A DNA stretch of 45,249 nt, taken from the NCBI GenBank assembly GCA_017409065.1, contig JAFQTK010000116.1, forward strand, positions 1 to 45,249. The letters are read 5' to 3'. The notes under the pieces were generated by a model. The model was not told where the DNA came from, did not search any database, and was given only the letters and a program-made list of their open reading frames with translations. Shown in pieces: positions 188 through 45,015 of the stretch. Every line of letters begins with the position of its first letter. Within the stretch, counting starts at the first letter, position 1. The position numbers were made by a program, and so were the translations under genes. This DNA is from a bacterium (GTDB lineage: Bacteria; Cyanobacteriota; Vampirovibrionia; Gastranaerophilales; Gastranaerophilaceae).

Positions 188-2065
188 TTATCTTTTGAAC
201 GAACCAACTGTAGAATAGGTCATTCCGCCAGTCCCAATATACTTCTTAACATACACTGCACAGCACTCTGGTGCGTCATCGGCAATGTTGTCTTTGTATT
301 CCCAATAGTTAATGTCCTTCATAGCCTTACCAACATCAGAGTTAGCAGTAAACACACGCCTTGAAGGAAACCACAAATACGACTGAATTTGAGTTTGACA
401 ACCATAAATCTTGTCTTTTTTAGGTTCGTATGAATAATATCCATTAACTTTTGTACTAAAATGTTTCATTTTCTTTAGAGTGTTGTTGATTTGTTCTACT
501 ATTGTACTTTCAGTATTCTCTTCGGCATCAACCTCAATACAATCGTGTGCAACAATTTTTTCGCATATTAATTCAAGTGCGGTTTTACCGCTTGCATATT
601 TATGGTCTAGTGGTTGATTATCAATAAAAGCATCAACAAAGTAGTGTTTTTCGCCATCTTGACTAAAGAATAAAGCACAAGTTTTATCTTTACCCTTTCT
701 TGATGGGTCAATTATAGCCCTACATCTTCTGCTTCTAGTTCCACCGTTTTCGTATGTAGGTGGCAATTCTTCGTAAATATGCACATTTGCAGAATCAAAC
801 GGATTAAGACCTGGCAATGGCATTTGTTGATTCATTGCTTGGAATATTCGACCACCATCAAGTGCTTCATCTCGTTCTCTTCTCAAAGAATCAGTAGGAT
901 ACTTCTCTGGGTATGTACTCTCATCAGTATCATAATCCAAACTTGGCACTCTTACAAACACTGCCTTACCCTTACTGACTATATAATTACTCTCGGCAAT
1001 ATGTGTAAACTTGTTTTTATTTGTAGTAGTAGCAATATCTCCATTATTTGCCTTCAACAAGAAAGTCAATATATCATCAACAGAATAAGTAGTACCGCCG
1101 ACAATCATATAGAAGTCAGTTAAGTTATAGTTTCTCTTTCGCCACTCGTTTGTCAACCTAAATATATCTCTTTCGTGAGCCTTTGGATTGTTCGCATCTG
1201 CAAGTTGGGCAATATCATCCAGGAATAAAAACTTGGCTCTGACACCGTTTGTGTTCTTCTCTTTCGACACCACACGAATATTAACTGGCTTACTACTACC
1301 AGCAATACGCAACTTGCTACCACTATCTTTGCACTGCCTAATCAAAAACATTCGGTTTGCAGTTTGCTCGGCATCTTCGGCTTGGAATTGCTGAAAGTAC
1401 GGAAACACTTTCGCATATCTCGAAGTAACCATCAAATCCACAAGACCAGCAGTAAATGTCCCTACATTCTCACTCGCCCCAAATACATACAACGCATCAG
1501 CATTTATATCATTACCAAAAATAAAAGCCAAAGTCATAGCATTCGAGTATGTCTTTCCCAGTCCAGTAAAACACTGCTTCGATATAAACTTCACATCACC
1601 ATTGAGTATCATACTGTTGGTATAAAACCAATAACCACCAAACAAGTGCATCGTCGGCTTCCACAACTTCTGCTCTGGCGACTTATCAAACTCCATATAC
1701 TGCACAAAATGTGTCAACGACCTGCAAGAAACCAAAGCATACACATCATCATACAACTGCGAATACTCTCCCACCAACTCTATCGGCATCCCTTTCTTCG
1801 CCAACCTTTCTTCTACTATCGGCAACACATTAGTAATAAGTTCACGCACGCTCGCACGAATACCACTCTCGCCCCTCGCACTATTCATTCTGTCGTAGTA
1901 CTCCCACACCTGCAAATAGTAGGTCTTGTAGCACATCTTCAACAACTCCAACACCTTGCTGTCGTCCGCCCAAAACTCTCGGTTCTCTGCATTTCGTGAG
2001 TACTTTGTCGCCAGTGCCTTATTTATCTCTATGATACTAGCACCATAATCTACACCTTTCGCCAC
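188..2065 (-). CDS. terL: Phage terminase, large subunit
   Basis: ATPase-nuclease motor that cuts concatemeric phage DNA and packages it through the portal. A Walker A-like loop, CFTGLGKT, lies at about residues 165-172 and a Walker B strand, FLFLDD, at about 279-284. The C-terminal RNase H-like nuclease begins at the IIDPSRKGKD motif (about 451-460), with further acidic residues near 515 (VDAEEN). At 625 residues it is somewhat longer than most (400-600). The start is GTG at 2065, six bases after AAGGAG. It lies upstream of the zinc-ribbon, portal, scaffold and capsid genes across the circular join, which is the expected packaging-head order. No small subunit is obvious next to it; the HTH protein at 2724-2978 is one possible candidate. 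Confidence 0.93.
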   Translation of the reverse strand: MAKGVDYGASIIEINKALATKYSRNAENREFWADDSKVLELLKMCYKTYYLQVWEYYDRMNSARGESGIRASVRELITNVLPIVEERLAKKGMPIELVGEYSQLYDDVYALVSCRSLTHFVQYMEFDKSPEQKLWKPTMHLFGGYWFYTNSMILNGDVKFISKQCFTGLGKTYSNAMTLAFIFGNDINADALYVFGASENVGTFTAGLVDLMVTSRYAKVFPYFQQFQAEDAEQTANRMFLIRQCKDSGSKLRIAGSSKPVNIRVVSKEKNTNGVRAKFLFLDDIAQLADANNPKAHERDIFRLTNEWRKRNYNLTDFYMIVGGTTYSVDDILTFLLKANNGDIATTTNKNKFTHIAESNYIVSKGKAVFVRVPSLDYDTDESTYPEKYPTDSLRRERDEALDGGRIFQAMNQQMPLPGLNPFDSANVHIYEELPPTYENGGTRSRRCRAIIDPSRKGKDKTCALFFSQDGEKHYFVDAFIDNQPLDHKYASGKTALELICEKIVAHDCIEVDAEENTESTIVEQINNTLKKMKHFSTKVNGYYSYEPKKDKIYGCQTQIQSYLWFPSRRVFTANSDVGKAMKDINYWEYKDNIADDAPECCAVYVKKYIGTGGMTYSTVGSFKR

Positions 2066-5353: not shown

Positions 5354-5684
5354 CTTCGCCACCTCCAGCCAACTCCGTCTTATTTATGCTCCTATAAACA
5401 AACTCACTCTTCGGCACAGTCCCTGCAACTTCCCCGTTCTCCATCAAAAACCTCGCCTGCCACTCTATCACTCCGTCAAGCATAAACGTTTCCGCCTCAC
5501 TCAACGGCACAACCCAGCACCCTCGCCCAGCATCATACCAAACCTCACCACCGTCGCCGTACCGCTTCTCCAACTCGCCAACCTGAAAAACGCCACTCTT
5601 CACCTTCGCCTCATCAATCACCGCTCCGCTCGCATCCCTCACCACTATCGGCAACCCATAACTGCTTCCCTGCAACATCGCCAT
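5340..5684 (-). CDS. BppU-like N-terminal domain protein, putative baseplate/fibre attachment protein
   Basis: A 114-residue protein with a beta-strand pattern (LPIVVRDASGAVIDEAKV, VWYDAGRGCWVVPLSEAETF, IEWQARFLMENGEVAGT) that fits the small immunoglobulin-like domain at the start of baseplate upper proteins. That domain usually couples fibres to the tail tip. It is the first gene of the minus-strand block, 28 bases downstream of the predicted start site of the promoter at 5719-5748, and overlaps the fibre gene. Two ATGs (5684 and 5678) are possible; the second has the better spacing from GGAG. The assignment is from pattern only. Confidence 0.6.
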   Translation of the reverse strand: MAMLQGSSYGLPIVVRDASGAVIDEAKVKSGVFQVGELEKRYGDGGEVWYDAGRGCWVVPLSEAETFMLDGVIEWQARFLMENGEVAGTVPKSEFVYRSINKTELAGGGEDVGE

Positions 5685-5748: not shown

Positions 5749-6278
5749 ATGTTTTTCCACACTTTCTGTTTTTTTTATTAGCGTAAAAAGTAGGGGTAAT
5801 GGGCTTGTTTGTTCGTTTTTTTCGTTCCCCCCACCGCCACCGCCACCAATAGCCAAAACAAAAAGAAAACAGCAAGAAAACAAGCACAAACAACCAGAAA
5901 AGCCACCAGAACAAGCCAAACGCCCACAGTTTAACACAAACGAACGTTTGCGGAAAGAAAACAAAAACCGTGCGGTGCGGTTGTAAATATATAATATATA
6001 TATATAATATTATTATTTTTTTGTAATACAGGACAAAACTGTAGTTACTTCCGCGTCTTGTTTTATTGTTTTTGATTGTGTAAATTGTATTAATTGTATA
6101 ATAAAAATATAATTGATATTAGGGGCGTTTATATTGCTATTGTTTGCGGTTGTGTTATTAGTGGCGTTTATAGTGTTATAACGTGCGTTATTGTTCTTTT
6201 GTTCGTTCTTGTCTTGCTTTTCGGTTTTTGTTAAAAAATAAAAAAGTTAAAAAAGTTTTGGAAACTTTGCAAAATTGC
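5749..6278. other. Non-coding divergent region, putative replication origin / control region
   Basis: No convincing gene in about 530 bases between the two divergent blocks. In order it holds: a plus-strand tract with a single T over 103 bases (5827-5929); an inverted repeat CAAACG-AA-CGTTTG (5937-5950); a GC patch GTGCGGTGCGG (about 5970-5980); a very AT-rich alternating TA stretch (about 5984-6018) suited to strand opening; and a 13-base direct repeat GGCGTTTATAkTG at 6124-6136 and 6163-6175. The nonamer TGCGGTTGT also occurs twice. This combination is typical of origins, but no DnaA box set or initiator gene confirms it. Overlapping minus ORFs at 5720-5964 look spurious. Confidence 0.4.
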
Positions 6279-6495: not shown

Positions 6496-6532
6496 AAGTA
6501 AAAGGAACGCCAAACGGCGAAAAGGTGTAAAA

Positions 6533-7456
6533 ATGAAAAACAATTTGAAACAATACAAAACAATCAAAACAAATTTATTAAAAGAATGGAGTGAAAAAGA
6601 CTTTGAAAGAATAAACAAACATATTTTATATATGCTAAAAACAAACTTTACGCATAATATAACAATAGAACACGGACACGATGAAAACACAATCGACTAC
6701 ACAAGCGAACACAGACTCGGCGAGGTTTTCGGGCTTCCTTATACATCGGGCGGAGACTTTGCGGGGGTTTGGAACACTAACACCCAAACCGTAACAAAAT
6801 ACGGCGTACGCCTATATTTTAGAGGCGTAGCAGTGGCGGAGGACTTAAAAACGGTTTTATTGTTTGAAGATAAACAACAACAATACTATTATTTTTATGA
6901 TTATGATTTTATAACATACCAAGAGCAAGAAAGACGCACACAAAAGGCGAAAGAGTGGGGCGAACTTGTAAAAAACGCAAATATTATAAAAAATAAATGT
7001 ATTGAAATTTTAAAACCATACGAGGGCAAGCCATACGGAGAAAAAACCGCCCAAAAAATCGGCGAAGAGTTGCGAGGGGTTGCGGTTGGTCTTGGGCTTT
7101 CTTCTGCTTGGCTAGATTCTAGCAAATACGGGCAAGGGCTGAAAGTTTACGGCAAAAATAACAAAGAAAAAAGATTTTATTTTAATTTTTTAAATGACGA
7201 AAACAAAATAACAACGCCAACAGACCACAAAGGCGAAGCGGTCGCAGATGTTGAAGAGTTCAACACGGTCGCAGAGTTTGAAAAGGCGGGCGAGTTTGTC
7301 GACAAAATGAAGAAAAAGGCGGGCGAGCTTTTAAAACTTATTGAAGAATTTAAAACACACGCAAGCCGTGCCAACTACTACCCAAAAGAAACACAAAGCA
7401 CCTACAGCGTAGACCTCGAAAACCTTTCAAGGGGTCGCATCAGTTGGGAGGGCTAA
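6533..7456 (+). CDS. Hypothetical protein, 307 aa
   Basis: A long unrecognised protein. The N-terminal half (1-130) mixes helix and strand and includes RLYFRGVAVAEDLKTVLLFEDKQQQYYYFYDYDF. The middle (150-225) has GEKTAQKIGEELRGVAVGLGLSS, like a small amphipathic repeat. The C-terminal part (245-290) is a charged helix rich in Lys and Glu. There is no catalytic signature, signal peptide or membrane segment. It is the main gene of the origin-proximal unit, so a replication or copy-control role is an inference from position. Ribosome site AAGGTG before ATG at 6533. Confidence 0.75.
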   Translation: MKNNLKQYKTIKTNLLKEWSEKDFERINKHILYMLKTNFTHNITIEHGHDENTIDYTSEHRLGEVFGLPYTSGGDFAGVWNTNTQTVTKYGVRLYFRGVAVAEDLKTVLLFEDKQQQYYYFYDYDFITYQEQERRTQKAKEWGELVKNANIIKNKCIEILKPYEGKPYGEKTAQKIGEELRGVAVGLGLSSAWLDSSKYGQGLKVYGKNNKEKRFYFNFLNDENKITTPTDHKGEAVADVEEFNTVAEFEKAGEFVDKMKKKAGELLKLIEEFKTHASRANYYPKETQSTYSVDLENLSRGRISWEG

Positions 7457-7460
7457 AAAA

Positions 7461-7634
7461 ATGCAAATAACAGTACAAAACGAATTTATAAAAATTGGTC
7501 AATGGTTCAAAGGCAATATAAATGGGGCAAAGTTTAAAATAATAGACATAACAAAAGGACTAAAACAAGAGCCCTACAAGGTGCAACAAAGCCCCAAAAA
7601 CGATACACAAGGGGGGCAAATATGCCAATATTAA
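7461..7634 (+). CDS. Hypothetical protein, 57 aa
   Basis: A short protein beginning MQITVQNEFIKIGQWFKG, with a strand-rich start and a polar tail rich in Gln, Lys and Asn. A good ribosome site (GGGAGGG) lies at the end of the preceding gene and the spacing to that gene is only four bases. Function unknown. Confidence 0.6.
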   Translation: MQITVQNEFIKIGQWFKGNINGAKFKIIDITKGLKQEPYKVQQSPKNDTQGGQICQY

Positions 7635-7819: not shown

Positions 7820-7949
7820 AACCGCACCAAAAACAAGGCAAAAACACAAAGAAAACGAAAGAAAAACGGCACAACAACAACCAGAGAAGAACAGCAACAG
7901 AACGCCAGCCAAACAACCAAAACAAAACACCCAACCAGCAAAGGCGGGG
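7820..7949 (+). other. T-free tract, 130 bases
   Basis: The plus strand has no T between 7820 and 7949; it is mostly A and C with scattered G. It lies between two terminators (7702-7730 and 7925-7962). A plus-strand transcript here would lack U and be unstructured; a minus-strand transcript would lack A. A 71-codon frame (7776-7991) crosses it but has no ribosome site and runs into the terminator, so I do not call a gene. Confidence 0.6.
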
Positions 7950-7962
7950 TGTTTATTTTTTT
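7925..7962 (+). terminator. Rho-independent terminator
   Basis: Eight-base stem AAACACCC (7925-7932) with GGGTGTTT (7947-7954), followed by a T-rich run ending near 7962. With no clear gene between it and the terminator at 7702-7730, it may end a short non-coding transcript or act as a second stop. Confidence 0.7.
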
Positions 7963-8008
7963 ATCTATTACAACCCGTATATATACAATAGTATCTGTAG
8001 GCGATAAT

Positions 8009-8083
8009 CTGTTGCAAGATATACAGGTGTACTATCATAACTGTTGTAGGTAGTAGTATGTATAGTCGTTTAACTGTTGCAGG
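8009..8083. repeat. Three iteron-like direct repeats
   Basis: The decamer CTGTTGyArG occurs at 8009-8018, 8041-8050 and 8074-8083, at 32-33 base intervals (three helical turns). The bases between copies are related but diverged. The array sits just 3' of the HNH gene. Such phased repeats often bind a regulator or replication initiator. Confidence 0.5.
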
Positions 8084-8085
8084 TT

Positions 8086-8472
8086 CTAGAACGGCTTTTT
8101 GTAATAAGTTGGTCTACCAATATAACTAGAACAATAAGGACAATGAGTTAAGGCTTCTTTCATATATTTGTCTTTTGATATTTTATTTAAGCAAAACTTG
8201 CAAGTAATTGTTTTTCTCTTTGATTTACTGCATTTTTTTAGATTTCTAATGCGATGCAATCTGTTATGGCAATCCTCGCACAAAAACATCAATTCATTAT
8301 CTCTCTCATTCATAAAATGCTTATATGTTTTATGATGAATATGAAAACCAGTCTTTATTACTTTTTTACACTTTTCGCAAGTGAATTTTCTTAAAACAGC
8401 AATATGCTGTCGCTTTTTTGCCCATTCAGGACTTTTTAGATAATCTGTGTATCTTTTTTTATTATTACTCAT
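8086..8472 (-). CDS. HNH endonuclease
   Basis: A 128-residue free-standing HNH nuclease. It has a paired cysteine (C32, C35), the catalytic HIHH (44-47), and the CEDCHNRLH block (65-73) supplying the second zinc pair and the N and H residues. A second zinc ribbon follows (C91, C94, C111, C114). The N-terminal YTDYLKSPEWAKKRQ is usual for phage HNH proteins. It is encoded against the direction of the early block, alone between non-coding stretches, which fits a mobile homing-type gene. A packaging-associated HNH is less likely because it is far from terL. Weak ribosome site GGTGGTGAG. Confidence 0.85.
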   Translation of the reverse strand: MSNNKKRYTDYLKSPEWAKKRQHIAVLRKFTCEKCKKVIKTGFHIHHKTYKHFMNERDNELMFLCEDCHNRLHRIRNLKKCSKSKRKTITCKFCLNKISKDKYMKEALTHCPYCSSYIGRPTYYKKPF

Positions 8473-8605
8473 TTACTCACCACCAAAACATACTTTTAGA
8501 AAGAAACAAGAGAAAACGAACCGAGAAACAACACATAAGAAAGACAAATAAAAGAGAAGAAAGAAAGAACGCCCCCAAAACCCCCAATTCACCGCTTACG
8601 ATTTT

Positions 8606-8854
8606 GTGGCAGACTTCCCACTTCGAGTTAGAACTTGAATTTACTTTCTCACAGACCCTAACTAGGTTCTACTTGGCTTACCAAGCATCAGCACTATTGT
8701 TGAGGCTGTTGGCTATCAGCCGTTGTTAGAAAAACAAAAAACCACAACTACTTGACAATCGACACCTTGCCTTTCATTGCGGTTTTTCTAACCCTTAAAA
8801 ATATTCAGTTGTGACCTAGATATTCCGTGTCGTCTGAATATCCAAGGGTTTTTT
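8606..8854. ncRNA. Candidate structured RNA: seven adjoining hairpins
   Basis: Seven stem-loops follow one another with almost no gap: 8606-8621 (GTGG/CCAC), 8622-8639, 8653-8670, 8672-8685 (CTTGG/CCAAG), 8704-8721 (GGCTG/CAGCC), 8725-8792 (11-bp GTTAGAAAAAC/GTTTTTCTAAC) and 8790-8850 (outer AACCCTT/AAGGGTT, inner ATATTCAG/CTGAATAT). The last is followed by six T on the plus strand (8849-8854), like a terminator. The last two stems share bases 8790-8792, so they may compete. No reading frame with a ribosome site covers the region. Sense strand is unresolved: one non-Watson-Crick pair becomes G-U on plus, another on minus. Confidence 0.5.
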
Positions 8855-8961
8855 GCGATTTATGAAATCAAACCGATAACACCATAACATATAAAAAAGT
8901 AAAAGTAAAGCGATTTTCGAAAAAAAATTAAAAAAATTTTAAAAAAGTTTTGCAAAATAGT

Positions 8962-8990
8962 TTGACTATGTGCTTTTGTTGTGATACAAT
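8962..8990 (+). promoter_or_regulatory. Promoter of the recombination gene unit
   Basis: -35 TTGACT (8962-8967), 17-base spacer, -10 TACAAT (8985-8990) with an extended TGn. It precedes the RHH gene at 9025 by 34 bases. A short inverted repeat TTGT-N6-ACAA overlaps the -10 and could be an operator for the RHH protein. Confidence 0.8.
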
Positions 8991-12711: not shown

Positions 12712-13197
12712 ATGAGCAAAGTAATTGTAAGCGACACAAGGGAACAACGAAATGCCGAAGTGTTACGATACCTAGAAGTGATAGGACAACCCTATGTGGT
12801 GCGAAAGGTCGAGGCTGGCGACTACATTTGGTGTATCAATGGCGAAGATGACTACTCGACCGTAATTGATTTGAAGAAGGACTTGGTGGAAGTGGCTGGT
12901 AATATTGCTGGCACGAAGAAAGAACATGAGAGATTTAAGCGAGAAATCGCAAGAGCAAGGGAACTCGGTTGCACACGATTTGTTGTGCTAATCCGAGAAC
13001 CCCTACACTCTCTTGAAGATGTGCAAACTTGGCAAAGCCCAAAGTTGAGAAACGGCAGAAAGTTAGTGAGCCGACCACCAACAGCACTATACAAGACTAT
13101 GAAAACTTTTGAGAGCCGATATGGTGTCGAGTGGAAGTTTACAAGTCGCTTTCGTGCTGGTGAAGATATTATAGCCATATTAGATGGCAAGTTGTGA
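12712..13197 (+). CDS. ERCC4-type nuclease (XPF/MUS81-like)
   Basis: A 161-residue nuclease with the ERCC4 active-site layout: VSDTREQ (D8, R10, E11), D37 in AGDY, and VIDLKKDL (D53, K55, D57) standing in for the usual ERKxxxD. Downstream HERFKREIARARELGCTRFVVLI is the expected helix-strand segment. It probably cuts branched or flap DNA during recombination or repair. The glutamate of the ERK motif is replaced by aspartate, as in other phage members. Ribosome site AGGAGAT. Confidence 0.75.
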   Translation: MSKVIVSDTREQRNAEVLRYLEVIGQPYVVRKVEAGDYIWCINGEDDYSTVIDLKKDLVEVAGNIAGTKKEHERFKREIARARELGCTRFVVLIREPLHSLEDVQTWQSPKLRNGRKLVSRPPTALYKTMKTFESRYGVEWKFTSRFRAGEDIIAILDGKL

Positions 13198-16575: not shown

Positions 16576-17298
16576 GTGAAAGTGAAAAAACATATTGCAA
16601 GTGTCAGTTTTGGCAAAGATAGTCTTGCTATGTTGTTGAGATTACTGGAAGAAAATAAACCACTAGACGAAGTTGTATTTTACGATACTGGTATGGAGTT
16701 TAATGCAATATATAATATACGAGATAAAGTTATAGAAATGCTAAAAGACAAGAATATCAAGTTTACTGAACTAAAACCTAAATGCAACTTTGAATATTGT
16801 ATGTTTGAGAAACCAGTAAAGGTAGGCAAACCAAACGAGCATAAAGGTTATTCTTGGTGTGGTGGTCGTTGCCGTTGGGGAACTATGGAGAAAATCAGCA
16901 CAATAGAAAAGTATTGCGAAAATGCTTACGAGTATGTTGGTATTGCTGTTGATGAACCACAAAGACTTCAAAAAGAGAGAAAAGGCAACAAGTTATTTCC
17001 ACTAGAAGAATGGAATATGACCGAGAAAGATTGTTTATCTTATTGCTATGCTAATGGTTTTGACTGGGTGGAAGATGGCATACATTTATACGATATTCTT
17101 GATAGAGTTAGTTGTTGGTGTTGTGCAAATAAGAACCTAAAAGAGTTAAAGAACTACTACCTATACTTGCCGACATATTGGGAAAAGTTAAAACAACTTC
17201 AAAGTAAGACTGATAGACCTTTCAAGTATAACAAATATACAATTTTTGATTTGGAAGAAAAATTTAAGAAGGAGAAGAAAGATGGCGACATACGATAG
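16576..17298 (+). CDS. PAPS-reductase / DndC-like ATP pyrophosphatase family protein
   Basis: The PP-loop motif SFGKDS (residues 11-16) and VVFYDTGMEFNAIYNIRD identify an adenylate-type alpha-hydrolase of the PAPS reductase family. Cysteines at YSWCGGRC (C95, C99) and CWCC (C180, C182, C183) could hold an iron-sulfur cluster or zinc, as in phage relatives; EYVGIAVDEPQR is also typical. Phage members may act in DNA or nucleotide modification; DndC itself works in DNA phosphorothioation, but no other dnd gene is seen here. Start GTG 16576 or 16582, both near AAGGAG. Confidence 0.8.
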   Translation: MKVKKHIASVSFGKDSLAMLLRLLEENKPLDEVVFYDTGMEFNAIYNIRDKVIEMLKDKNIKFTELKPKCNFEYCMFEKPVKVGKPNEHKGYSWCGGRCRWGTMEKISTIEKYCENAYEYVGIAVDEPQRLQKERKGNKLFPLEEWNMTEKDCLSYCYANGFDWVEDGIHLYDILDRVSCWCCANKNLKELKNYYLYLPTYWEKLKQLQSKTDRPFKYNKYTIFDLEEKFKKEKKDGDIR

Positions 17299-18526: not shown

Positions 18527-19249
18527 ATGAAAGTATTATTAGCGTGTGAAGAAAGTCAAGCAGTATGTAAAGAGTTTCGTGCATTAGGACACGAAGCATA
18601 CTCTTGCGACTTATACGAATGTAGTGGTGGACACCCAAAGTGGCATATTAAAGGTGATTGTTTGCCGATATTAAATGGAAGGTGTGAGTTTACTACCGAA
18701 AATGGAGATAAGCACTCAATAGATACAAAGTGGGATTTAATAATTGCTTTCCCACCTTGCACTCATCTTGCTGTTAGTGGTGCTAGACACTTTGAAAAGA
18801 AAAGAGAAAGTGGTGTACAAGCAGAAGCAATAGAGTTCTTTTCTCAAATGCTTAATGCTGATTGTGATAGAATTGCTGTTGAAAACCCTATAAACATTAT
18901 AAGTGGAGATTATATAAAAACTTATTATCCTGAATTATGCGAAAAATATGGACTACCAAAGAAACAAAATCAAATAATTCAGCCATATATGTTTGGTGAT
19001 GAGTTTGAAAAATCTACTTGCTTGTGGTTAAAAGGATTGCCACTTCTTCAACCTACAAATATTGTTGGCAAGGGAGAGTTCTTTGAGTGGACAGACAAGA
19101 AAACTGGAAAAGTAAAAAGACAGCCAAAATGGTTCTTTGATGCTTTAAGGACAGCAAAATCAACGGAAGAAAGAAGTAAACTTCGTAGTAAAACTTTCTT
19201 GGGAATTGCAAAGGCTATGGCTGAACAATGGGGAAAATTAAAAAAATAA
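18527..19249 (+). CDS. C5-cytosine DNA methyltransferase-like protein
   Basis: A 240-residue Rossmann-type protein. KVLLACEESQAVCKEFRALGHEAYSCDLYE forms the cofactor-binding start, PPC (76-78) in AFPPCTHLAVSGARHF is the catalytic motif IV and ENP (119-121) in AVENPINIISG is motif VI. It is much shorter than bacterial C5 methylases and has no clear target-recognition domain, as usual for this phage subfamily. It may protect phage DNA from restriction or act in base modification. It shares a unit with the PAPS-reductase-like gene. AGGAG precedes ATG at 18527. Confidence 0.75.
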   Translation: MKVLLACEESQAVCKEFRALGHEAYSCDLYECSGGHPKWHIKGDCLPILNGRCEFTTENGDKHSIDTKWDLIIAFPPCTHLAVSGARHFEKKRESGVQAEAIEFFSQMLNADCDRIAVENPINIISGDYIKTYYPELCEKYGLPKKQNQIIQPYMFGDEFEKSTCLWLKGLPLLQPTNIVGKGEFFEWTDKKTGKVKRQPKWFFDALRTAKSTEERSKLRSKTFLGIAKAMAEQWGKLKK

Positions 19250-19646: not shown

Positions 19647-20237
19647 ATGAGATTTGGATACATTAGAGTTTCGTGTGCCGACAAGCAAGAGTTTTTTAGA
19701 CAGGAGTTTGCATTGCAAGACCACCAAATAGAGAAGTTGTATGAAGAGAAGATAAGTGGGACGAAGAAAGCAAGCACTCGCCCAGAGTTCGAGAAGATGG
19801 TCGCTGAGTTGTCTGCTGGTGATGAAGTTTACTTCGAGAGTATGAGCCGTATGGCTAGGTCTATGCAAGACTTAATTGATACTACGAATATGTTAGTAAA
19901 GAAGAAAAAGGTCAAAGTAGTATTCTTAAAAGAGAACCTTACTATTGGTGGCGATAATAATAACGATGCTATGGCGACCTTAATCTTCAACATTATGGGT
20001 TCGTTTGCCCAGTTCGAGCGTGATTTGATTGCAGACAGGACAAAGCAAGGTTTGAAGGCTAGACGAGAACTGCTTGGTGATGCTTTCAAAATCGGCAGAG
20101 AGAAACAATTTGTCGAGCCATCTGTCATTGAAACGATAAAATCACTCTACGGCACTTGCTCTGTTTCAGAAATCCAACGCAGAGTCGGTATCAGTAGGAG
20201 AATAGTTGACAGGGTGATAAGGGAGGAGTGTAAGTAA
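19647..20237 (+). CDS. Small serine recombinase (resolvase/invertase family)
   Basis: A 196-residue serine recombinase. The nucleophile is S9 in GYIRVSCADKQ; the SRMARS segment (67-72) carries the conserved arginines R68 and R71; FERDLIADRTKQGL is the dimer helix, and residues 155-195 (SEIQRRVGISRRIVDRVIREE) form the C-terminal HTH. This is the Hin/Tn3-resolvase size class, not a large phage integrase. It may invert a segment, resolve multimers or substitute for an integrase. No invertible segment with paired crossover sites was seen. Its unit is controlled by the operator shared with the HTH gene at 2724-2978. Confidence 0.9.
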   Translation: MRFGYIRVSCADKQEFFRQEFALQDHQIEKLYEEKISGTKKASTRPEFEKMVAELSAGDEVYFESMSRMARSMQDLIDTTNMLVKKKKVKVVFLKENLTIGGDNNNDAMATLIFNIMGSFAQFERDLIADRTKQGLKARRELLGDAFKIGREKQFVEPSVIETIKSLYGTCSVSEIQRRVGISRRIVDRVIREECK

Positions 20238-24801: not shown

Positions 24802-24877
24802 TGGAGGCACGGGCGAGATTCGAACTCACGCATAAAAGTTTTGCAGACTTTCCTCTTAACCACTTGAGTACCGTGCC
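24802..24877 (-). tRNA. trnC: tRNA-Cys (anticodon GCA)
   Basis: Complete cloverleaf on the minus strand: acceptor GGCACGG/CCGTGCC, anticodon stem AAAGT/ACTTT with loop CTGCAAA giving GCA, T-arm GTGAG-TTCGAAT-CTCGC, discriminator T as expected for Cys, and an encoded CCA (24802-24804 complement). It is the last gene of the minus-strand block. It may supplement Cys decoding for the many cysteine-rich phage proteins. Confidence 0.95.
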
Positions 24878-42081: not shown

Positions 42082-42876
42082 CTAAGCGATTGTAATTTTG
42101 ATTGCTTTAGAAGCGTCTTTCAAGTATGTAGCATAATGTTCATCAGCAGTAATTACTGTGTATTTAGCAATAATATCTCTATCAGATTCAACCATTACAC
42201 CTCTTTTTAGTTCGATACCCAAAGCACCAGGAGCAACAATGTAAGCAGTTGTATCATTTACTTTGCCAGAAACTTTAACTTGAAGTCCAGCAACTTTACC
42301 AACAACACCATTGATAAGTACTTTGTCAGTATTTTCAAGACCTACGATTTCAGTAGCAATCTTTACATAGTTGTTAGGTGAAACAACCAATACAGCAGGT
42401 TGGTCAACATATTCACCAAATTTTGCTTTTGCTGTTAATAGACCAGCAACTGTCATAGCACCACTAGCAGTAAGTGTAGCAGTAGAAAGTGCTTCAAACA
42501 AGTCGTTATCAATTTTGTTAGCAATAGACATTTTTAATTGATTTTTTGCTTCGCCAACTGGGTCGCCATAACCAGACAAAACTGATTCGTCAGTGATTTC
42601 TACACCCTTACCAGCCTTTTTAACTGTTACGCTAGTATCAGTTGTTCCCATTTGTGTAATGCTGATGTCTGCACCTTCTGCTACATCATTAGCATCACCG
42701 ATATAATTCCACGCTGGGAATTTAATTGTATCTCCTGCTCTACCTTGTAATTTTCTACCCACAGTTGCTAATGGAGCAAGTGCAATAGCATTTGGAAGTT
42801 CAGCACTAATCATATCAGCAAGAACTTCTGGGTTTACTAAATTTGCCAATTTTGTTCCGTTTTCAGAAATAGCCAT
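42082..42876 (-). CDS. Major capsid protein, N4-gp56 family
   Basis: Forms the capsid shell with an HK97-type fold. 264 residues; the N-terminal NLVNPEVLADMISAELPNAIALAPLATVGRKLQGRAGDTIKFPAWNYIGDANDVAEG and the following VTVKKAGKGVEITDESVLSGYGDPVGEAKNQLKMSIANKIDNDLFEAL are the family signature. Later, AVLVVSPNNYVKIATEI and the C-terminal YATYLKDASKAIKITIA agree. Lies after the scaffold gene. Ribosome site AAAGGAGAAT. Confidence 0.9.
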   Translation of the reverse strand: MAISENGTKLANLVNPEVLADMISAELPNAIALAPLATVGRKLQGRAGDTIKFPAWNYIGDANDVAEGADISITQMGTTDTSVTVKKAGKGVEITDESVLSGYGDPVGEAKNQLKMSIANKIDNDLFEALSTATLTASGAMTVAGLLTAKAKFGEYVDQPAVLVVSPNNYVKIATEIVGLENTDKVLINGVVGKVAGLQVKVSGKVNDTTAYIVAPGALGIELKRGVMVESDRDIIAKYTVITADEHYATYLKDASKAIKITIA

Positions 42877-43542: not shown

Positions 43543-45015
43543 CTAAATGTTGTTATTACCATTGTTTGCATTATTAACAACCTGTTGTTGTTCTTGTGCC
43601 AATTTTTCTCTATATTGCTCAATTCTTCTTGATGCTGTAACTGGGTCATTAGACAAACGACACCAAGCAATAGCCAAGTCTGAAGGCACACTACATTGTA
43701 TAAATGTTTGATATGCTTGCGATTTAGACACCATATTGTCAGTCATATTAGGGTTGTACTTAATCTCTATCTCACTAGCATTTAACTCGTTCAACTTCGA
43801 GTTAGGGTCTTTCTTGCAGATTGTCAGTATCTTGTCAAGAAGTTTATAATCAGCAACAAGGAAACTGTTAATCTCGTCAAGTAGGCGGTCATAAGCGTTT
43901 TCCCAACCATTTCCTAACTGCAATGCACCTTGCTTGTTTCCACCATTACTTGTATCACTAATAGCAATAGGAACACCACAAGTAGCATATAGTTCGTTTT
44001 TAATGCTTTCCATAAGCGACAGAACATCAGTATGGTCTAATTTAGTACTTAAAGTCTTAACGTCAGCCTCTATATCCGGGTTAGGGTCTTTAATTTCTAA
44101 CGCACCACCACGCTTTGCATCACGCAAGTTCTGTGCTTTCTCTTCTGGAGTATTACCAAGTACGCAGTTTCTAAATATCAACATTTCGTTCACAAGGTCT
44201 TGCACATTGTCAACTTCGTTTGAATAAATGTTGTCAATAGCATTTTGCAAAGTTTCGCCAATTTCAACAACTCCAATTCTGCTTTCGTTAGCAAATTTCT
44301 CTGTCAAAGGCAATTTCTTGTAAATTGGTCTAGTTTTTGTCTTATCAGCCCTTATATCGAACTTTGGAGTGTTAGGAATTGTATTGTCGCACTCAAATTC
44401 GTAGTAAAAGTCTGGCAAATACAATGAAATTAGTATAAATTCTTTTTCTTTGCCTTGATTTATCTTCTTATAACTCGTAACCAGCATATCAAAGAGTTCT
44501 TCTTCGCCGTTATACGAACTATAAATCTTCGCACAAGTATCAGCAGGTCTTAACCACAAATCGTAAGGTGCTTCGGTTTCAGAATCGTAAATTTCCGACT
44601 TTGGCTCTGTAAAGTAGTAACCAACACCAGTAGCATACACCCAATTCGCAACATTTTTGTCGATAGTACGCATATTTGCTGATTTTGAGTACTTGTTTAA
44701 GTATTTTATATCATCAGTTTGCTTTTCTTCGGTTTGTGCATACTCTTTTGGGTTTCCAAGTGCATAACCACTCTTAAAATTAACGATTGCCCACAAGTGC
44801 GGAGTCGAAACCTTGTTGTTTATGTCGCTATCGTCTTCATATCTACGAGTTTTTTTGTCAATCTCGTGCTTGTTTTCGTAAACTTCCCAAAAGTGTTGAA
44901 TTTTTTTCCGGTTTTCGCAGAACTTTTCAAAAACAGTAGGCAAATAAGGCTCAATCGCACTCAAAGTCAGTTCTTTTTTCCTAACTGGTATCTTGATTTT
45001 CTCAATTCCTGCCAT
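43543..45015 (-). CDS. Portal protein (SPP1 gp6-like)
   Basis: Twelvefold ring through which DNA enters and leaves the head. 490 residues: STPHLWAIVNFKSGYALGNPKEYA near residue 70, IDKNVANWVYATGVGYYFTEP, an extended wing and clip region, the helix GGNKQGALQLGNGWENAYDRLLDEINSFLVADYKLLDKILTIC, and a Gln/Asn-rich C-terminus (EQQQVVNNANNGNNNI). This is the SPP1-type pattern. Start ATG shares a base with the stop of the zinc gene, with AAGGAGG upstream. Confidence 0.9.
   Translation of the reverse strand: MAGIEKIKIPVRKKELTLSAIEPYLPTVFEKFCENRKKIQHFWEVYENKHEIDKKTRRYEDDSDINNKVSTPHLWAIVNFKSGYALGNPKEYAQTEEKQTDDIKYLNKYSKSANMRTIDKNVANWVYATGVGYYFTEPKSEIYDSETEAPYDLWLRPADTCAKIYSSYNGEEELFDMLVTSYKKINQGKEKEFILISLYLPDFYYEFECDNTIPNTPKFDIRADKTKTRPIYKKLPLTEKFANESRIGVVEIGETLQNAIDNIYSNEVDNVQDLVNEMLIFRNCVLGNTPEEKAQNLRDAKRGGALEIKDPNPDIEADVKTLSTKLDHTDVLSLMESIKNELYATCGVPIAISDTSNGGNKQGALQLGNGWENAYDRLLDEINSFLVADYKLLDKILTICKKDPNSKLNELNASEIEIKYNPNMTDNMVSKSQAYQTFIQCSVPSDLAIAWCRLSNDPVTASRRIEQYREKLAQEQQQVVNNANNGNNNI

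Follow-up and report, generated by a model that had tools for sequence, protein, structure and literature searches.

The window analysed here is a stretch of 45,249 nucleotides. A direct terminal repeat of 141 bp in this contig, together with the alignment of a related phage across its ends, identifies it as a complete, circularly permuted phage genome of approximately 45.1 kb. The contig was binned within a 2.18-Mb MAG, in which a second, remote terminase (27% identity; G000:C14:3838-5373, L080) probably belongs to another phage or prophage. The window phage encodes its late genes on the minus strand and its early genes on the plus strand. The element described here, of which the phage and its assembly contain one copy, is located in the early control region, with a small plus-strand block (6533-7634) on one side and the early operon on the other. 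The single tRNA gene of the phage (~24802-24877) is found 16 kb away. The early region also encodes a PAPS reductase-like protein (16576-17298), a DNA methyltransferase (18527-19249) and an ERCC4-type nuclease (12712-13197), all on the plus strand, and a DNA invertase-type serine recombinase is encoded at 19647-20237 (plus strand; phrog_125, Pfam Resolvase). The main features are:

188-2065, minus strand: terminase
7918-7952, minus strand: terminator-like stem ACACCC...GGGTGT followed by TTTGTTTTG, read from the sequence
8086-8472, minus strand: gene for an HNH endonuclease-like protein of 128 aa, downstream of the element on the same strand
8473-8703, minus strand: remaining leader as far as the HNH start, with a pyrimidine-rich linker at ~8485-8575 and folding no better than shuffles
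8672-8685, minus strand: possible further hairpin CTTGGTAAGCCAAG (L005: CTTGGTTAAGTTCAAG), a motif resemblance seen by eye
8881-8909, minus strand: predicted promoter of the RNA, TTTACT-17-TATGGT, an extended -10 type with TGT before the -10 hexamer
8962-8990, plus strand: promoter-like site of the early operon, TTGACT-17-TACAAT, TG extended, divergent and outside the RNA
42082-42876: major head protein
43543-45015: SPP1-type portal

One syntenic phage, IMG/VR 3300029305_003066 (L005), was found through the early annealing protein (ERF-like). The ERF-like proteins of the two phages are 85% identical and their terminases 84% identical; nearly all of the small early genes differ, and a 307-aa neighbour is only 27% alike. 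The 128-aa protein encoded next to the element in the window matches phrog_119 (HNH endonuclease, E 2.3e-9) and, below the cut-off, Pfam HNH (E 0.0017). Its matches are HNH-like and zinc-ribbon-like only, with no RuvC part, and no homologue of the protein was detected in L005 by tblastn.

The predicted promoter of the RNA is a weak match to the consensus and is absent from the list produced by a consensus promoter scan. The homologous L005 site (6496-6524, minus strand) reads TTGACA-17-TATTGT and likewise has an extended -10, with TGn before it. Minus-strand transcription is predicted to start at ~8873, approximately 22 nt upstream of the first hairpin of the element. The stem at 7918-7952, which is missing from the consensus terminator scan because its loop is too long, is the probable end of this transcript. 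Terminator-like sites are listed on the minus strand of L005 at 5866-5885 and 5642-5658, and from promoter to terminator the L005 transcript would extend for ~635 nt without a convincing ORF, comprising in order hairpins A, B and C, an unexceptional middle part (z -0.66), a structured segment at 5980-6160 and the terminator-like sites. That segment of the RNA 3' part (minus strand, z -4.91) contains three hairpins or segments with AAAGGTAAT that were not found in the window. L005 also has a second structured stretch on the plus strand (6564-6835, z -3.25), with a promoter-like TTGACA-17-TAAATT and a terminator-like end, to which the window has no DNA match. Repeated TGCAACAG boxes lie between the HNH gene and the terminator-like stem (7952-7918) of the window. 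The box AACTGTTGCAG / CTGTWGYA recurs at 8002-8023, 8038-8056, 8067-8088 and ~6040-6060 of the window and at 5844-5910 and ~3690 of L005, at matching places in both phages that flank the convergent plus-strand block; these boxes might be bound by a phage regulator.

An earlier note on this DNA had described seven adjoining hairpins between 8606 and 8854, at a density said to exceed chance. On inspection of the sequence all seven stems are legible, including the perfect 11-bp stem (arms 8725-8735 and 8782-8792), and the last two do overlap at bases 8790-8792. When both strands were folded and compared with dinucleotide shuffles, as the note had proposed, the result was far better than shuffles on the minus strand of 8720-8856 only: z was -4.25, with none of 100 shuffles as good, while the plus strand of the same segment gave -0.97. 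Values for 8600-8720 were near zero (-0.70 plus, -0.32 minus), and 8473-8600 showed no excess structure (+0.69). Across 8600-8860 as a whole, 14 of 200 shuffles folded equally well on the plus strand (z -1.60), compared with 2 of 200 on the minus strand (z -2.94). The folding excess is thus limited to 8720-8856 of the minus strand; the claimed density fails for most of the region, and the seven hairpins do not hold together as a unit or on the strand originally read. In a scan of 137-nt windows over the phage, with ranks approximate at 20 shuffles per window, the minus-strand window at 8720 ranked 7 of 902. Strong folding relative to shuffles was also seen at windows 41920 (plus), 35820 (minus), 33520 (plus), 40320 (minus), 25220 (minus) and 28520 (plus), some of which exceed the window at 8720. 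This case shows that assessing such regions by the strand that is read first can mislead.

On the minus strand, the element consists of three hairpins, the first of which has two mutually exclusive forms:

8790-8850, minus strand: hairpin A in its final form, 8834-8850 paired with 8790-8808 over 17 bp, interrupted by a small bulge
8815-8846, minus strand: hairpin A in its alternative form, 8837-8846 paired with 8815-8824 over 10 bp
8725-8792, minus strand: hairpin B, with a lower stem (8783-8792 / 8725-8734), an upper stem (8776-8782 / 8742-8748) and a tip (8768-8771 / 8754-8757)
8704-8721, minus strand: hairpin C, GGCTG-atagccaa-CAGCC (L005: AGCAG-atggttga-CTGCT, equal loop length)

The final form of hairpin A is part of the MFE structure of both phages (-21.7 kcal/mol and 17 bp in the window, -21.8 kcal/mol and 16 bp in L005), and between them it contains one two-sided change, two one-sided changes and no broken pair. 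When growing 5' fragments were folded, the alternative form appeared first (-11.2 in the window, -8.8 in L005) and was preferred as long as no more than the initial ~40-55 nt of the element existed, giving way to the final form; all ten of its pairs are kept in both phages. These folding models predict that hairpin A of both phages refolds from a metastable short form into the long form. The switch that had been proposed between the last two hairpins stands as a competition for a few bases, but the conserved switch sits within hairpin A instead. The upper stem and tip of hairpin B are present in the MFE structure of each phage folded separately; L005 keeps this hairpin with two-sided changes at one upper-stem pair and one tip pair, other changes to or from G-U, and nothing broken. 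In hairpin C, two of the five pairs are changed on both sides and none is broken. Hairpin C is present in the MFE structure of L005 but not in that of the window, and is therefore weaker than A and B.

Window positions 8715-8898 align with L005 6336-6512 (187 columns, 74% DNA identity) at an equivalent point of the gene order, and the L005 copy likewise folds strongly on the minus strand (z -5.52). No DNA match to L005 was found in the remainder of the leader (8473-8703). Alignment gaps in the core are 1 and 2 bases long, and therefore no reading frame is common to the two phages across it. Hairpins A, B and C are intact in both, with 40 non-overlapping pairs on the minus strand, of which 29 are identical, six are changed on one side, five are changed on both sides and none is broken. 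Five of the window pairs and three of the L005 pairs are G-U, which would become A.C mismatches in a plus-strand reading. When the 16 observed substitutions were placed randomly in the stems of the two phages, aligned by structure, zero broken pairs occurred in 0 of 200,000 trials and at least five double changes in 6 per 100,000. A slid-partner control on a MAFFT alignment, which is independent of the structure-guided stem alignment, gave 98.7% paired cells for the true partners versus 39-55% for slid ones; a letter-shuffle control gave 33/500, a weak control in that two alignment rows can reach no better. Within the one comparison that provides this covariation evidence, between the window phage and L005, the 5' part (hairpins A, B and C; ~8704-8850) shows conservation of both sequence and pairing in an RNA-like, strand-specific and non-coding way. 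An apparent inversion between window 8928-8977 and L005 6509-6556 was also noticed; it was not counted as a sign of an invertible segment, the match being a similarity of A/T-tract-plus-TTGACW promoters in opposite orientation.

The proposal of a structured phage RNA is well supported by its compensatory changes (in the one relative), its non-coding indels and its better-than-shuffled folding, and is corrected in its strand, which is minus, and its core, which is ~8704-8850 rather than 8606-8854. None of the results named beforehand as arguing against it (no compensation, shuffle-like energy or a conserved protein frame) was obtained. The nested plus-strand stem with a T run is not retained as a terminator in the relative (window AAGGGTTTTTTG, L005 AAGAGTCTTATTTCC).

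The earlier note had recognised no known RNA family, and Rfam searches of the window phage and L005 agree in giving no match at the locus. With Rfam 15 (4227 families) at gathering score, only the tRNA at 24805-24877 was reported in the window and nothing in L005, and in relaxed searches (E up to 10) the best score at the locus was 23.1 bits compared with a gathering score of 54. Weak matches to DUF2800 RNA and STnc370 were rejected, as they fall far under the gathering scores and are missing from the L005 list. Further members were sought using DNA patterns from hairpin B, hairpin A (in viral sequences and in genomes) and the B-C junction, for which the L005 contig was the only true match, the other matches lacking the flanking fold. 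Terminase queries recovered L005, remote terminases and L077 (a fragment of 5.6 kb, closely resembling L005, that ends before the element), and the element is absent from the YqaJ and ERF relatives. A covariance model (R1) run against 288 family genomes gave a best E of 0.0132 in one genome, which is chance level over 288, and the alignments do not resemble the element. A blastn search of INPHARED and plasmids returned nothing. The antisense search of the two phages found no partner or target of the RNA, there being no antisense target of at least 12 nt common to both.

Taken together, these results are probably best explained by a phage-encoded structured minus-strand RNA, regulatory or noncoding and with a fold of roughly 150-200 bases, in which A, B and C are conserved. 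In the window its transcript would continue into the HNH gene. Transcription would begin at the predicted start, from a promoter divergent from the early-gene promoter across a common A/T tract; hairpin A would form first as the short metastable hairpin and then in its long form, with B and C following directly. The L005 transcript would contain no convincing ORF up to its end ~635 nt later, and because of this the element would there be a free-standing noncoding RNA or its 5' domain. In the window, the HNH gene would use the promoter of the element. As to mechanism, we tentatively place first a free-standing RNA made from the phage early control region, which would fold cotranscriptionally and bind a host or phage component, although conservation limited to the 5' part of the transcript disfavours a long free-standing RNA. 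The next likeliest mechanism, and a rather doubtful one, is a 5' domain that would act in cis on its own polymerase.

An analogy with HK022 putRNA suggests a promoter-proximal cis leader that would act on RNA polymerase by anti-pausing or antitermination and let the minus-strand transcript pass terminators. Two long hairpins in direct succession, ~22 nt after the predicted start and in the early control region, would suit such a leader, as would the conservation of the 5' part alone, with an HNH gene downstream in the window and noncoding sequence in L005. However, the element is approximately twice the length of put and present in one copy rather than the two of HK022, a read-through transcript would be antisense to the convergent plus-strand genes until it reached a first minus-strand gene, and in L005 the late genes possess their own promoter-like site (3376); we consider this explanation, the main rival, unlikely. 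It is less likely still, and improbable, that the element regulates the HNH gene in cis as its 5' leader or attenuator. The gene does follow on the same strand and has a plausible ribosome-binding sequence, but the structured part stops ~230 nt before the start codon, the linker is unstructured, no terminator is listed between element and gene, and L005, which lacks the gene, still has element and promoter.

Replication origins often contain inverted repeats, and the hairpins might be merely RNA-like, forming a DNA-level element such as operators or origin hairpins between the divergent promoters, with three related GATATTC units in hairpin A as candidate protein-binding sites. We regard this as quite improbable: exceptional folding is restricted to one strand, the minus-strand G-U pairs give A.C mismatches in the plus-strand fold, and loop-side changes obey RNA rules. 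An OMEGA-type or other guide RNA of the HNH protein, or its remnant, to which the earlier note had tentatively linked the hairpins, has nothing in its favour except its position beside an HNH-like gene and is highly improbable, given a 128-aa protein with only an HNH-like stretch, no match to HEARO or any other Rfam family at E up to 10, and an L005 that keeps the RNA without the gene.

L005 keeps both RNA and promoter with no HNH gene there; a link between the structured minus-strand RNA that we favour and that gene is not supported, and the gene is probably a passenger. A broader reading, that the element represents a new class of phage noncoding RNA of ~600-900 nt whose conserved 5' domain would fold via an obligatory metastable hairpin and which was invaded by an HNH gene in one lineage, seems unlikely. 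Structured phage RNAs whose function is unknown form a recognised but thinly sampled kind; this element offers a defined strand, a likely promoter, a conserved core with a refolding step and an HNH-less relative, making it directly testable.

Among known RNAs, phage c4 antisense RNA is a small RNA of the early control region. The present element differs from it in having no Rfam match and no conserved antisense target of at least 12 nt in the two phages; c4 antisense RNA (RF01695) is listed among phage RNAs (PMC2864571). HK022 putRNA consists of two stem-loops in ~70 nt, with putL located just downstream of PL, and its two copies of similar sequence suppress pausing and termination through the beta-prime zinc-binding domain (PMC9378689). 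The element would resemble put in layout, lying in the early control region of a phage just behind a (here predicted) promoter and having adjoining stem-loops with no ORF between them; the element is ~150 nt long and single, in contrast to ~70 nt and two copies. GOLLD and ROOL are phage-encoded structured noncoding RNAs of hundreds of nt and unknown biological role, often found near tRNA islands and containing multiple pseudoknots (PMC12286853). The predicted ~635-nt L005 version would likewise be a structured phage RNA of hundreds of nt, but here there is no Rfam match, the tRNA gene is distant and conservation is limited to the 5' part. The HEARO/OMEGA RNAs of IsrB/IscB (PMC12286853) share with the element only an HNH-like gene nearby, and differ in that here no family match and no RuvC-containing protein were found and the RNA occurs in L005 without an HNH gene. 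As far as they are testable, the features that define HEARO/OMEGA and GOLLD/ROOL RNAs are missing from the element, as is at least one of those of put. Thousands of candidate gut RNAs, some adjoining phage genes, have been reported (PMC8040213), and the element is probably a new structured phage RNA, with two members so far, that is possibly already present as an unnamed candidate in that collection.
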